Source: Alphaproteobacteria bacterium (GTDB lineage: Bacteria; Pseudomonadota; Alphaproteobacteria; CAAGCB01; CAG-977). Taken from it: a DNA stretch of 64,000 nt. The position numbers were made by a program, and so were the translations under genes. The notes beneath the pieces are model-generated. The model was given only the letters and a program-made list of their open reading frames with translations. It made no database searches and was not told the DNA's origin. Shown here one piece after another: positions 57,137 through 64,000 of the stretch (position 1 is its first letter; every line of letters begins with the position of its first letter). The stretch spans positions 124,001 through 188,000 of the forward strand of contig JAFZYY010000006.1 of the NCBI GenBank assembly GCA_017616015.1, read 5' to 3'.

Positions 57137-57160
57137 AAAGGCGGGGTTTTCCCCGCCTTT
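57137..57160 (+). terminator. Terminator of flagellin 2
   Basis: AAAGGCGGGG-TTTT-CCCCGCCTTT, identical to 53985-54008. Confidence 0.9.
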
Positions 57161-57224: not shown

Positions 57225-57260
57225 ACGGATTACATTAGAATTATTAATAAGGAGGGCCAA

Positions 57261-57548
57261 ATGAATTCCGAAATAATAAATGAAGAGCCTAATCACTCTA
57301 AAGAAACCGGACGGTTAAACCGTATTCGCGGACAAATCGACGGCATCAAAAAAATGATTGAAGGACATCGCAGCTGTAAAGAGATTTTGTCTCAGCTAAA
57401 AGCTGTCCGCTCCGCCGTTCGCTCCGTCGAAGCCAGCATACTGCAACGGCAGTTACAGTATAACGTCGTCCAAAGCTTTAAATCCGAAAACGATCGCGAA
57501 AAAATAATCAATGAAACAAAAGAATTGTTTAATGATTTCCACGAATAA
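57261..57548 (+). CDS. CsoR/RcnR-family regulator lacking two metal ligands
   Basis: A 95-residue all-helical repressor-like protein (DUF156) with RLNRIRGQIDGIKKMIEG and SCKEILSQLKAVRSAV. CsoR needs Cys-His-Cys. The first Cys (C39) is present, but the region that normally reads like H-L-x-x-C here reads RQLQYNVV, so His is Gln and Cys is Asn. It may sense something other than copper, for example a persulfide through C39, or be constitutive. AAGGAGG precedes the ATG. It lies 12 bases upstream of the MnmA-like gene. Confidence 0.88.
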   Translation: MNSEIINEEPNHSKETGRLNRIRGQIDGIKKMIEGHRSCKEILSQLKAVRSAVRSVEASILQRQLQYNVVQSFKSENDREKIINETKELFNDFHE

Positions 57549-57560
57549 ACGGACGACAAA

Positions 57561-58640
57561 ATGAAAGTTCTGGTCGGATTAAGCGGCGGCGTCGATTCCG
57601 CCGTCGCGGCTTATCTGCTGAAACAAAGCGGGCATGACGTCGTCGGCGCAACTATGTCCATCTGGGAAAAAGGACACGCCTTTTCCGGCCTGACCACCGC
57701 CGACGCCTGTTTCTCCCCCCACGAAGAACAGGACATCGACGCTGCACGTGAAATCTGCAAAATACTCGATATTCCCTATCACACGCTCGATTGCTCGGAA
57801 ATCTACAAAAAAACCGTGCTGGAAAATTTCAAAAGCGAATACCTGTCCGGACGCACCCCTAATCCCTGTGTGTGGTGCAACGCTAAAATCAAATTCAGAG
57901 CTCTGCCCGATGCCGCTAAACAGGCCGGCATCAACTTCGATAAATTCGCAACCGGTCACTACGCCCGCATCACCTTCGACGAAAAATCAAACCGCTTCCG
58001 GCTGCGCCGCGGAATCGACTCCAAAAAAGATCAATCCTATTTCCTTTACCGTCTGAGCCAGGATCAATTAAGCAAAATCCTGTTTCCTTTAGGCGATAAA
58101 ACAAAAGCCGAAATCCGCGAAATCGCCCGCGTCGCCGGATTCCCCGTCAGCGATAAGCCCGACAGTCAGGACTTCTATTCCGGCGACATTAACGATATTT
58201 TACAAGCCGACCCGAAACCCGGCCGATTCATTATGAAAGACGGCACCGTCATGGGAACGCACAACGGTTTCTGGAACTATACGATCGGACAGCGCAAAGG
58301 ATTGGGAATCAGCGCGCCGAAGCCGCTTTACGTCATCGGATTCGATAAAGACAATAACGATGTCATCGTCGGATTCGAAGAAGAAAACGTCTGCCATTAT
58401 CTGACCGCCGGCAACTTGTGTTGGTCTGAAGGCGAACCGCCGGCGGCCTCCTTCGCCGCTGTGGCGAAAATACGCTCGTCGCAACCGCCGACGCCCGTCC
58501 GCGTTTCCTTAACGGCCGCAGATGAAATCAAAATCGACTTCGAACTCAATCAGCGCGGCGTCGCCCCCGGGCAGTCCGTCGTGCTGTATGACGGCGACTT
58601 AATCCTCGGCGGCGGCATAATAAAAAACAGCGGGAAATAA
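57561..58640 (+). CDS. mnmA: MnmA-like tRNA 2-thiouridylase with altered catalytic site
   Basis: The 359 residues match MnmA, which thiolates U34 of certain tRNAs. PP-loop GLSGGVDSAVAA (residues 5-16) binds ATP. NPCVWCNAKIKF (about residue 95) holds the first catalytic Cys. DQSYFLYRLSQDQL and NYTIGQRKGLGI are family text. Where MnmA usually has DSQDICF with the persulfide Cys, this protein reads DSQDFYSGD, without Cys. It may be a paralog with a different sulfur donor or no activity. It shares an operon with the CsoR-like gene. Confidence 0.85.
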   Translation: MKVLVGLSGGVDSAVAAYLLKQSGHDVVGATMSIWEKGHAFSGLTTADACFSPHEEQDIDAAREICKILDIPYHTLDCSEIYKKTVLENFKSEYLSGRTPNPCVWCNAKIKFRALPDAAKQAGINFDKFATGHYARITFDEKSNRFRLRRGIDSKKDQSYFLYRLSQDQLSKILFPLGDKTKAEIREIARVAGFPVSDKPDSQDFYSGDINDILQADPKPGRFIMKDGTVMGTHNGFWNYTIGQRKGLGISAPKPLYVIGFDKDNNDVIVGFEEENVCHYLTAGNLCWSEGEPPAASFAAVAKIRSSQPPTPVRVSLTAADEIKIDFELNQRGVAPGQSVVLYDGDLILGGGIIKNSGK

Positions 58641-59971: not shown

Positions 59972-61372
59972 TTATATTTTCTTTCCTATAATTAATAAAC
60001 CCGAAACAGGTTTGCCAAGCTCCTGCCGCAGTGTAACCGACTGTACTTTTTCCACATGGAAAAACGGCTCTATTTCTTTGGAAACGTACAGCCTGCCGTG
60101 CATAAAACGCCCCGAAGGTTCCAAAGCATATCCGTTTTCGTCCTCATTCTCACTGACCGTAAAGACTATATAACCGCCGGATCTGACCGCGGCAAAAAGC
60201 CCCGAAAATACCTTGGACAAATCCCCTATGTATGTAAAAACATCTGCCGAAACAACCAAATCAAACCGATTCGGATTCGACGGCAAAAAAGAAATAATGT
60301 CTTCCCGGCACAACTCCGTGTAAAGATGTCTTTGCTCGGCTTTTTTTAACATTTCCGAAGACAAATCAACACCGGTCAGAGAAGACCAGGAAACGTTCTG
60401 ATCTTTCAGCGCCGCCGCGCACAGTCCCGTGCCGCACCCCAAATCAAGCGTTTCCGGCAGCTGCTTAAACGATATGCTCTTAACCGCCGAAGCAACCAAA
60501 GCCGGCGCCTGATAATCCAACCCCGTCAGCACGGAATCAAACGAATCCGCAAAAGCGTCGAATAATTCCCGTACATACGCCGCCGAAGCCCGCTTCAGGC
60601 TTTCCGGCTCTTTCAGCGTTTCCAAAACATGCAGAGCGACGGGATTGTCCGGAAACAACCTCAGCCACTCGTCCGCAAAATACAACACCTGCTCCGTTTT
60701 TCCCTGCATTTGCAGATTATACAGGCAGCCGCTGAGAATAACGTGCGTCATTTCGTCTTCTTTAACTTGCAGCAAACGCAGGTACGTTTCGGCCGCCCGC
60801 TCATATTCTTCCTTTTCTTCCGAAAGTTGCGCATAAGAATACAGATATTCGGGATTGTCCGGATCAATCGCTAACAATCTGCCAAATATTTCCGTTGCTG
60901 AATCCGTCTGTTTTTCCGTTATCAGCGCGCTGGCCAAATTAAACAAGACCAACGGATCGTCCGGCTTGATTTCCAATGCTTTCCGATAAGATTCTATCGC
61001 CTCCGCCCCTTTGTTTAAAGACGACAGCATATTGCCGCGATGTATCAAAGCGTTTACATAGTCCGGCTGTCTGGCCAGAGCCTGATCGCAAACGGACAAG
61101 CCTTCTTCAAAACGGGACGTTTCGAAATAAACACCGGCCAAATTGGCCAGAGCTATCACGTCCGTCGAAGATAAAGAAATCGCTTTCAGATAGGCTTTTT
61201 CAGCTTCGTCGAAACGCTTCAGCCCGTAATAAGCGTTTCCAGCTCCGATCCACACAGCGTAATCCGTCGACTGCTCTTTCAGTGCCTGTTCTGCCAAATC
61301 CAAAGCCGCCTGATACTCCGCCCGATTGTTTTTTTCATTAACGGCTGCAATCAAATCATCTGAAGACATCAT
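59972..61372 (-). CDS. TPR protein with C-terminal SAM methyltransferase domain (paralog 2)
   Basis: A 466-residue protein with about seven TPR units (about residues 15-250, such as EAEKAYLKAISLSSTDVIAL) and a class I methyltransferase domain. LDLGCGTGLCAAAL (about residue 309) is the SAM-binding motif I, followed by TGVDLSSEMLKKA. The ATG at 61372 overlaps the stop of the upstream gene by 4 bases (ATGA), showing translational coupling. The open frame begins 10 codons earlier but lies within that gene. The substrate is unknown. Confidence 0.88.
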   Translation of the reverse strand: MMSSDDLIAAVNEKNNRAEYQAALDLAEQALKEQSTDYAVWIGAGNAYYGLKRFDEAEKAYLKAISLSSTDVIALANLAGVYFETSRFEEGLSVCDQALARQPDYVNALIHRGNMLSSLNKGAEAIESYRKALEIKPDDPLVLFNLASALITEKQTDSATEIFGRLLAIDPDNPEYLYSYAQLSEEKEEYERAAETYLRLLQVKEDEMTHVILSGCLYNLQMQGKTEQVLYFADEWLRLFPDNPVALHVLETLKEPESLKRASAAYVRELFDAFADSFDSVLTGLDYQAPALVASAVKSISFKQLPETLDLGCGTGLCAAALKDQNVSWSSLTGVDLSSEMLKKAEQRHLYTELCREDIISFLPSNPNRFDLVVSADVFTYIGDLSKVFSGLFAAVRSGGYIVFTVSENEDENGYALEPSGRFMHGRLYVSKEIEPFFHVEKVQSVTLRQELGKPVSGLLIIGKKI

Positions 61373-63003
61373 TTCTTTTTTTGCACCGCAAAAACAAGGC
61401 ATAGCATTTTTTCGTCTTTATACAAAAATCCTTCCCGCTGGTTTTCCAGCTCTAATTCCAAAGATTTCAGGCAGGATCGCACATACTCCGCGCTATGATA
61501 AAACAAACCGTTGTCAAAAAGAATTTTCTGTTCCGGCTCTTTCGGTGCCAAAACGGAAAAAATAAAATGGCCGTCCGGCTTCAATGCCTTTTTAATCGCA
61601 TTAAATACCGGCTCTAAATTCGAAAAACACGGCAAAACGTCCATACAAACAATTAAATCATACTGCTCCGCCCGCTCTTTTTCCTGACAGAACGAAACCA
61701 AATCGCTGTTCTGAACATCACTGTACTTTTCCTGCGCGGCAGCAAAATTCAACGCTTCCGGCGAAATATCAACACCCGTTAAAACGCCGGAAGGACGACT
61801 GTACTTCTCTAAAAAAGAAGCCATCGCCCCTGTACCGCAGCCTAAATCCAAAACATGAAAGGACTGTCCCGCCGGCACTTGTATAGAATGGAACGTTTCC
61901 TCCAGAAGAGACGGCAGATTGTAAGAAAGCCCCATTGAAATTTCCATCAGACTTTCCGCATTTCTGTCGTTCATCTGCCGTATCAGAGACAACGGAATAT
62001 TTTCCGTTCTTTTTTTGTTTGATAACGTTACATCGCAGATAAACTGTATTTCCGGCGTTTTGTCCTTCTGAGATTCCAAAAATTTTGCCAATTCCAGATT
62101 TTCTTCTTCCAATCCGTCCTGCCGTATCGCATCAAACAAAGTTTGAAGATAAAGAAGCCACTTTTCGGAATTTCGCGGCATTGTCATCAGCAAATCAAAA
62201 GCGTCGTCATATCTCTGCAGTTGAATTAAAGCATCTTCCCATTGAAAATATTCGTCTTCCGACAAATCGGAACAAAAAGACAGCTTCTGAAACAAAATAT
62301 CCGTTTTTTCATATTCTCCCAAAGAAACGGAAGCTTTGATCAATTCGGAGAGAATGCCGGGATCATTCCCGAAAAAGAGCAAAGCTTCTTCCCCGTATTT
62401 TAAAAGTCTGTCGTATTGCTTCGTTAATATCAGTACGCGATAAAATGATTCATTTTGAACGGTCGCGGTTTCGTTTGTCTTCAGAGCTTTTTCAACAAAA
62501 TAGTCCGCCTGAGGCAGATTTCCAATCAAAAGCGCATAAAACGCCATTAAATTTAAGATTCGAGCGTCCTTTTTAAACCGCGGAAAAACCGATCGCATTA
62601 ACGCATATAATTCATCGGAATGCTTTAATTCATTCAGCAAATGCGCTTTTAAAACATATGCGTCAATGTTTTCAGAATCTTTTTCCAACGCCTTATCCGC
62701 AAAAACAAGAGCTTCTTCTTTACGGTCAAGCAAATTCAGCACGTCGGCCAAACATAAATATCCCTGTGCCGGCAAATCTTTAAGACGTTTGGTTATTTTA
62801 TCTAAAAAAGACGCGTCGGCGGAAGAATACTGCAGCCAACAAATATTGCGGTTTAACCAAAAAACATCATTATCCGGTTCTTTCGTCAGCAAATCGTCAT
62901 AAACGGCGACAGCCTCTTCATAGCGTTCCAATAAAAATAATCCGAAAGCGCGGGTCTGCCCCGCGCTCTCCGATTTTTCCATTAAAACGTTTTCTTCCGT
63001 CAT
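61369..63003 (-). CDS. TPR-like protein with C-terminal SAM methyltransferase domain (paralog 1)
   Basis: A 544-residue relative of the previous gene with helical repeats over about 340 residues. The methyltransferase motif is LDLGCGTGAMASFL (about residue 390) followed by TGVDISPEALNFA. The ATG at 63003 overlaps the TGA of oadB by one base, so it is translated from the same message. A pair of such enzymes next to a sodium-pump subunit is unusual. Small-molecule or protein methylation are both possible. Confidence 0.86.
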   Translation of the reverse strand: MTEENVLMEKSESAGQTRAFGLFLLERYEEAVAVYDDLLTKEPDNDVFWLNRNICWLQYSSADASFLDKITKRLKDLPAQGYLCLADVLNLLDRKEEALVFADKALEKDSENIDAYVLKAHLLNELKHSDELYALMRSVFPRFKKDARILNLMAFYALLIGNLPQADYFVEKALKTNETATVQNESFYRVLILTKQYDRLLKYGEEALLFFGNDPGILSELIKASVSLGEYEKTDILFQKLSFCSDLSEDEYFQWEDALIQLQRYDDAFDLLMTMPRNSEKWLLYLQTLFDAIRQDGLEEENLELAKFLESQKDKTPEIQFICDVTLSNKKRTENIPLSLIRQMNDRNAESLMEISMGLSYNLPSLLEETFHSIQVPAGQSFHVLDLGCGTGAMASFLEKYSRPSGVLTGVDISPEALNFAAAQEKYSDVQNSDLVSFCQEKERAEQYDLIVCMDVLPCFSNLEPVFNAIKKALKPDGHFIFSVLAPKEPEQKILFDNGLFYHSAEYVRSCLKSLELELENQREGFLYKDEKMLCLVFAVQKKK

Positions 63004-64000
63004 CAGCCGCACATCACCAATAAAATACCGGCCGCAACGGCAGAGCCGATCACGCCCGACACATTCGGTCCCATCGCGTGCATCAGAATAAAGTTTGTCG
63101 GATCCGCTTCCTTAGCGACTCTGTCGGCAACACGTGCCGCCATCGGAACGGCGGAAACGCCTGCCGCTCCAATCAACGGATTCAGCTTTTCTTTGCTGAA
63201 ACGGTTCATCAGTTTAGCCATTAAAATACCGGTTGCCGTCGCAATCGAAAAAGCGATCAGTCCCAAAACCAAAATACCCAGAGTCTGCGCGGCTAAAAAT
63301 TTATCCGCGGACAGTTTTGAACCGACCGTCAGACCGATAAAGATCGTGACGATATTGCACAGCTCGTTCGCGGCGCATTTCGCCAACCGATCCACCGCTT
63401 TTGATTCTTTGAGCAGATTGCCGAACATCAGCATGCCCATTAACGGCGCAGCGGACGGCACGAACAAAACGCACAAAGAAATAACCAAAAAGACAAAAAT
63501 CAGTTTTTCTTTGCGGGAGACTTCGCGTAGCTGCTTCATTTTGATTTTACGTTCTTCAACCGTTGTCAGCGCCCGCATAATCGGCGGCTGAATAATCGGC
63601 ACCAACGCCATATAGGAATAAGCCGCGACAACAATCGCGCCCATTAATTCGGGAGCCAGACGACCGGTCAGGAAAATCGCCGTCGGACCGTCGGCGCCGC
63701 CGATAATACCGATGGAAGCCGCCTGCTTTAAAGTAAAATCGACTAATCCCAAATCGGTCAGAGCCAACGCGCCCAAAACGGTCGCGAAAATACCGAACTG
63801 AGCCGCACCGCCCAAAAGAGCGACTTTCGGATTGGCAATCATCGGCCCGAAATCCGTCATCGCTCCGACGCCCATAAAAATAATCAACGGGAATATGCTC
63901 GGCGGAGCAATGCCGATATTATAAATATAAAGCAAAAATCCCGTCACGCCGTCCGTAACTTCGGCGACCCCAGCCCCCGGCGCGTTGGACAGCAACCCGC
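63003..64000 (-). CDS. oadB: Sodium-pumping decarboxylase beta subunit, OadB-like (5' end outside window)
   Basis: Inner-membrane subunit that couples decarboxylation of oxaloacetate, methylmalonyl-CoA or glutaconyl-CoA to sodium export. About 330 residues are in the window. [56 protein letters not shown] (with the sodium-binding Asp) and [19 protein letters not shown] are family text. The frame is open to the window edge; the internal TTG at 63995 is not a real start. It heads an operon with the two methyltransferase genes. Confidence 0.93.

Follow-up and report, generated by a model that had tools for sequence, protein, structure and literature searches.

A member of a Cys199-less class of MnmA and its CsoR-family neighbour at an alphaproteobacterial locus

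Results

Organization of the csoR–mnmA locus

The window, that is, the whole 64,000-nucleotide stretch of alphaproteobacterial DNA that was analysed, carries an open reading frame (ORF) for a CsoR-family regulator followed head to tail, after 12 nucleotides, by an ORF for MnmA. The features of the locus, all on the plus strand, are as follows.

57137–57160, +: G+C-rich, terminator-like inverted repeat AAAGGCGGGG-tttt-CCCCGCCTTT, 3' of the flagellin gene; exact arms, placed by position
57227–57238, +: -10-like element GGATTACATTAG, read by eye
57249–57255, +: AAGGAGG, ribosome-binding-site-like by sequence
57261–57548, +: CsoR/DUF156-family regulator, 95 amino acids, with Cys39, Gln64 and Asn68 at the ligand positions (Cys, His and Cys in the family)
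57561–58640, +: predicted MnmA, tRNA U34 2-thiouridylase of the Cys199-less (DF) class, 359 amino acids, sole copy in the genome
57708–57710, +: codon for Cys50, proposed third cluster ligand, by alignment
57792–57794, +: codon for Cys78, by alignment
57867–57878, +: CVWC, Cys103 and Cys106 (CxxC motif), with DxxC at the same place in E. coli-type MnmA
58161–58178, +: DSQDFY; ICF-class MnmA reads DSQDICF here, with the equivalent of Cys199, by alignment

The terminator-like repeat parts the flagellin gene from csoR, and we infer that csoR and mnmA likely form one transcription unit. A TTACAxTA core, read by eye only, is repeated upstream of csoR in all five loci in which csoR precedes mnmA. 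A simple inverted-repeat scan upstream of the same five csoR copies recognized no G-tract pseudo-palindromic operator of the CsoR kind. Elsewhere in the window (59972–63012), two adjoining minus-strand genes overlap by 34 bases, and both appear by eye to encode TPR-repeat, methyltransferase-like proteins.

The downstream gene encodes the only MnmA of the genome

The MnmA of the window scored above both curated MnmA equivalog cut-offs (381.9 bits against 284, and 330.8 against 236.95), and three tRNA_Me_trans Pfam domains were found in it. It keeps the PP-loop (SGGVDS, Ser8–Ser13), the CxxC and TGHY motifs and the C-terminal domains. The predicted structure has a pLDDT of 93, its best PDB matches are all MnmA, from E. 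coli and S. pneumoniae (Z 39.8–41.8 over 335–347 residues), and fold comparison returned known MnmA and other PP-loop relatives only. With the DxxC-C enzyme of E. coli (PDB 2der/2det/2deu) it shares the fold, at the same Z scores, the PP-loop and the equivalent of Cys102, which is Cys106; it differs in that Cys103 replaces Asp99, so that D99-x-x-C102 becomes Cys103-x-x-Cys106, and in having no Cys199. The [4Fe-4S] thiolases TtuA and NcsA also share the PP-loop fold (5mkq, Z 11.8; 6scy, Z 12.2); they are separate families, and the match spans the catalytic domain only.

The first-pass annotation had left room for a second, complete mnmA. A PF03054 search of the genome (98.28% complete) found none, its one PF03054 protein being the MnmA of the window; of the reading that annotation had set against its own, a sole and functional MnmA, the first half is thus what was found. 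The genome also encodes MnmG, two desulfurases and a SUF locus with SufC-like and SufD-like ORFs (named by eye). It gave no match to TusA, another difference from E. coli, and none to NifU_N over its cut-off, with only one below it. As the genome has no other MnmA and the remaining active-site residues of this one are conserved, it can be argued to work; its sole-copy status suggests that it makes s2U34 as the housekeeping tRNA U34 2-thiouridylase.

Cys199 is missing from a class of MnmA proteins

The first-pass annotation had read the active-site segment of this MnmA as DSQDFYSG in place of the expected DSQDICF, and this was borne out, both ORFs of the pair being intact. The position of Cys199 is taken by Tyr206 or is deleted, and none of the alignments made restored a cysteine there or elsewhere in the segment. 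A persulfide-bearing Cys199 marks the DxxC-C and CxxC-C types and is no part of the curated MnmA models. In a first search for MnmA genes 55 of 61 genomes matched, and 30 loci were aligned (one, L018, partial). Sixteen of the 30 proteins are of the DFY type and all 16 lack the cysteine, which argues against a chance loss in the window; the other 14 are canonical, with DSQDICF. Genome contigs were then scanned with the patterns K[PK]DSQDFY and RTPNPC[VI]xC, which gave 591 confirmed stretches, and the 80 best of these serve as wider loci. Since both patterns derive from the DF alignment, these 80 loci are a biased sample, and one without DxxC-C proteins.

In the combined set of 110 proteins (the 30 loci and the best 80 of 591), 62 are of DF type, with the motifs DFY, DFI, DFV, DFL or DFA, and 48 of ICF type. 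A single branch with a support of 98 splits the two in a tree of these 110. DF records, again among the 30 loci and the best 80 of 591, are titled Spirochaetales, Treponema, Elusimicrobium, Gastranaerophilales, Victivallales, Verrucomicrobia, Bacteroidales, Fibrobacter, Dehalococcoidia, Desulfobacterales and Alphaproteobacteria, and many DF members in the sample come from gut samples. The alphaproteobacterial MnmA proteins of the window's kind group within the DF set, apart from the 14 canonical alphaproteobacterial ones. The DF type is a minority in the class Alphaproteobacteria, since the pattern DSQDFY was found in only 17 of its 385 genomes. Among 40 DF genomes, assemblies of unstated completeness, 35 have one strong MnmA (E < 1e-50) and five have two; in the latter (G063, G071, G088, G098 and G100) the DF protein is accompanied by a second strong MnmA.

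By alignment, then, the loss of Cys199 is shared by a whole class of MnmA that extends across many phyla, and for this reason it is not tied to the regulator in the window. The class-wide nature of the change, the CxxC at 103/106 and the conserved Cys50 had all been overlooked in the first-pass annotation. The passages on MnmA available from two reviews (PMC11784392, PMC8584467) make no mention of a Cys199-less class; Shigi 2020 and Zhou 2021 may describe it.

Cysteines kept and lost in the two classes

Residues were tallied over the same 110 aligned proteins. The motif cysteine equivalent to Cys199 (position 206) is present in all 48 ICF rows, and in DF proteins both Cys206 and Cys51 are absent: residue 51 is Cys in 45 of 48 ICF rows, and each of the 61 DF rows has Phe, Tyr or Leu there. 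The CxxC of residues 103 and 106 is found in every DF row (62/62), and Cys50 in all 61 DF rows that cover the position. Since 45 of 48 ICF proteins have Cys50 as well, a new role in the DF class is not proven by its invariance there. In DF proteins, the MnmA of the window included, the loop after Cys50 is longer than in ICF proteins and the loop after residue 206 is shorter, by three residues. This pattern suggests that the Cys50 loop may have taken over from the lost Cys206 loop; since all of the covariation of Cys51 and Cys206 lies on one branch of the tree, the split may be a single event.

Other cysteines are less regular. Cys66 occurs in 40 of 61 DF rows. Cys78, present in 37 of 61 DF rows and in none of the 48 ICF rows, was considered as a general replacement ligand and rejected, being absent from 24 of the 61. 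Some cysteine lies between aligned positions 190 and 222 in 14 of 62 DF rows, at scattered places; the MnmA of the window has none in this interval.

The regulator is a CsoR-family protein with one of three ligands

The upstream gene encodes the only CsoR-family protein of the genome (Trns_repr_metal, 75.9 bits; cut-off 22.8). At the ligand positions, which lie 25 and 29 residues after Cys39, it has Gln64 for His and Asn68 for Cys (C-Q-N), confirming the first-pass observation that one of three ligands is kept. With the copper repressors of the CsoR type it therefore shares the DUF156 domain and Cys39 and differs in having neither the His nor the second Cys ligand. It is also unlike FrmR, a feature of which is a Pro2 beside a conserved Cys (PMC5016687, part of the text): its residue 2 is Asn, and it scored 46.3 bits with the FrmR model (cut-off 133). 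The persulfide sensor CstR belongs to the same protein family; its 29-residue spacing of two cysteines (C31/C60') is not found in the window regulator, which has Asn68 for the second Cys and hence a single Cys, and the two-Cys pattern occurs in two of the five regulators that adjoin mnmA. TTHA1953, a CsoR-family repressor of sulfur oxidation (C39/C68), has the same spacing as those C-Q-C and C-Y-C copies.

The five mnmA-adjoining regulators read C-H-C (L004 and L011), C-Q-C (L009), C-Y-C (L010) and C-Q-N (the window). In other genera of the family, the g3 copy (L038) is C-H-C, and three g2 copies (L039–L041) keep no ligand at all. The last three lack even the position-X cysteine, which the available part of a 2016 paper calls conserved in all DUF156 proteins (PMC5016687). 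Outside the family, 25 of the 26 best homologues are C-H-C; in the other, a homologue from the class (L196, genome G150), Ser and Ala replace both ligand cysteines (S-H-A). Overall, C-H-C was found in 28 of 35 homologues, and six of the seven exceptions lie within the window's family. Several of these outside homologues adjoin ORFs that by eye resemble metallothioneins, metal transporters or metallochaperones. With the 25 of 26, these neighbours point to an ancestor that was probably a metal sensor, and the regulator of the window probably descends from such a C-H-C protein. In three loci (L038:995–1426, L181:974–1444 and L182:1369–1782) csoR is directly preceded by a small Cys-rich, metallothionein-like sequence, which in L182 shares the reading frame of csoR, the two making a single ORF of 137 amino acids.

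Six aligned csoR copies share 30 invariant columns, among them Cys39 (6/6) and several arginines. dN from the window csoR to L009, L010 and L011 was 0.32, 0.34 and 0.43, against 0.22, 0.27 and 0.32 from the L004 csoR; to the same outgroups mnmA was even (0.25, 0.26 and 0.29 from the window; 0.23, 0.27 and 0.28 from L004). In the four csoR comparisons in which dS could be computed, dS being mostly undefined, dN was below dS.

csoR adjoins mnmA within one genus

csoR adjoins mnmA in five of seven genus members (the window, L004, L009, L010 and L011), and no csoR homologue was found in the genomes of the other two (L005 and L007). A homologue of the window regulator is present in nine of the 12 genomes of its family. 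Beside the wider MnmA loci it was found in none of 80 (the best 80 of 591; single-query tblastn, with flanks of 4 kb at most and in some cases less), so that the search for further CsoR–MnmA pairs, which the first-pass annotation had suggested, yielded the genus and nothing among these wider loci. A six-row csoR profile matched 99 of the 385 genomes of the class, adjacency to mnmA being judged in 30 loci; in the four genomes outside the family that were compared by contig (G058, G032, G216 and G393), csoR is on one contig and mnmA on another.

Discussion

The close linkage of the two genes had been taken, in the first-pass annotation, as a sign of a shared function around sulfur rather than copper. 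The linkage itself stands, as a 12-nucleotide gap and probable co-transcription. A shared sulfur function does not follow from it: csoR adjoins mnmA only in five of seven members of one genus, the genomes of the other two have none, it turned up beside none of the 80 wider loci (the best 80 of 591), and outside the family 25 of 26 relatives of the regulator retain all three metal ligands. For a functional csoR–mnmA pair, the support ends at probable co-transcription in one genus, and the observations agree better with a metal sensor that is decaying or has been retuned than with a sulfur pair. csoR would be a genus-level addition upstream of mnmA, in the same transcription unit, that keeps its conserved core and that in the window lineage has lost two ligands and sped up. 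Most likely, to judge from these comparisons, it is decaying or answers to a changed effector, and MnmA does not require it as a partner. The speed-up, the loss of ligands and the two gene absences favour relaxation; the conserved core and the intact ORF would also suit a new effector, and plain decay is opposed by the persistence of the pair in five genomes, the invariance of Cys39 in six of six copies and, in the four comparisons with a computed dS, a dN smaller than dS.

That csoR is instead a CstR-like sensor of reactive sulfur, tuning mnmA to the sulfur supply, seems improbable to us. The gap of 12 nucleotides to the gene of a sulfur-using enzyme would suit it, as would the C-Q-C and C-Y-C regulators, and the match of their two-Cys spacing to CstR and TTHA1953 keeps the idea alive for the L009 and L010 copies, though not for that of the window, in which a single Cys permits no X–Z' disulfide. 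Two of the five paired regulators are moreover full C-H-C proteins, two genus members with the same kind of MnmA have no csoR, and no CsoR-like operator was recognized in the simple palindrome scan. A still working sensor of copper or another metal that merely happens to precede mnmA would be in keeping with the C-H-C copies (two of five paired, and genus g3), the metallothionein-like and metal transporter-like neighbours of class homologues (by eye) and a Cu-type P-ATPase with CPC in the genome (motif by eye), but it is very doubtful for the window copy, which has lost the His and the second Cys and does not adjoin the P-ATPase.

How MnmA without Cys199 might thiolate tRNA bears on an open dispute over bacterial MnmA, for which a persulfide on Cys199 and an Fe-S cluster are the rival mechanisms (PMC11784392, in part). 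The accessible review passages distinguish DxxC-C enzymes, for which persulfide or cluster is disputed, from CxxC-C enzymes (PMC11784392, PMC8584467), and also describe a Campylobacter/Helicobacter variant without the first CC region. The CxxC-C enzyme of Thermus thermophilus is described in one of them as carrying a [4Fe-4S] cluster and being active only without air (PMC8584467). The MnmA of the window shares with it the family, the CxxC at 103/106 and Cys50, and differs in having neither the third cysteine of the catalytic centre nor Cys51. Two sets of MnmA structures in the PDB (9hln/9i7r and 9hlv/9hm3/9hmj) have similar sequences that differ at the DxxC/CxxC position; the literature searches made turned up no paper on them.

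For a CxxC enzyme without Cys199, a cluster route fits better than a Cys199 persulfide. We infer that the MnmA of the window is a working thiolase that uses an Fe-S cluster: it would activate U34 with ATP like other MnmA, hold the cluster by the CxxC and a third residue, most simply Cys50, and deliver sulfur via the cluster as in TtuA/NcsA-type thiolases. Gene neighbourhoods give no hint of sulfur delivery in the DF class, a cysteine desulfurase being found in the flanks of only six of 46 DF loci against 17 of 34 ICF loci (wider loci, the best 80 of 591). In one alphaproteobacterial reticulum record (L042:4001–6308), a DF-class mnmA is directly followed by a sufS homologue, 52% identical to the SufS of the window genome.

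Persulfide chemistry retained on a different cysteine, either Cys50 or Cys106 (which corresponds to Cys102), would agree with the invariance of Cys50, Cys103 and Cys106 in the DF class, yet we think it rather unlikely, as the one CxxC enzyme described is a [4Fe-4S] protein without activity in air (PMC8584467, in part). An MnmA that has lost thiolase activity and serves another role, such as adenylation only or tRNA binding, would recall the C199A mutant of E. coli, which according to the part consulted of PMC11784392 could not transfer sulfur, but it is hard to credit: the other residues of the active site are conserved, and neither the window genome nor 35 of 40 DF genomes (of unstated completeness) have a second strong MnmA.

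Taken together, the explanation that we favour, by a modest margin over even chances, is a housekeeping Cys199-less MnmA with cluster-borne sulfur, preceded by a csoR that is a genus-level addition, decaying or changed in effector, and not a required partner. More tentatively, and with slightly more doubt than belief, we propose that a phylum-spanning class of MnmA makes s2U34 without Cys199, with a cluster on Cys50 and the CxxC whose free iron would carry sulfide. Because its members are usually the sole strong MnmA of their genomes, have no Cys199 and keep Cys50 and the CxxC, the class offers a direct test of mechanism and bears testably on a live dispute. If the proposal is true, nature has already made the mutant that separates the persulfide from the cluster mechanism of bacterial tRNA thiolation.
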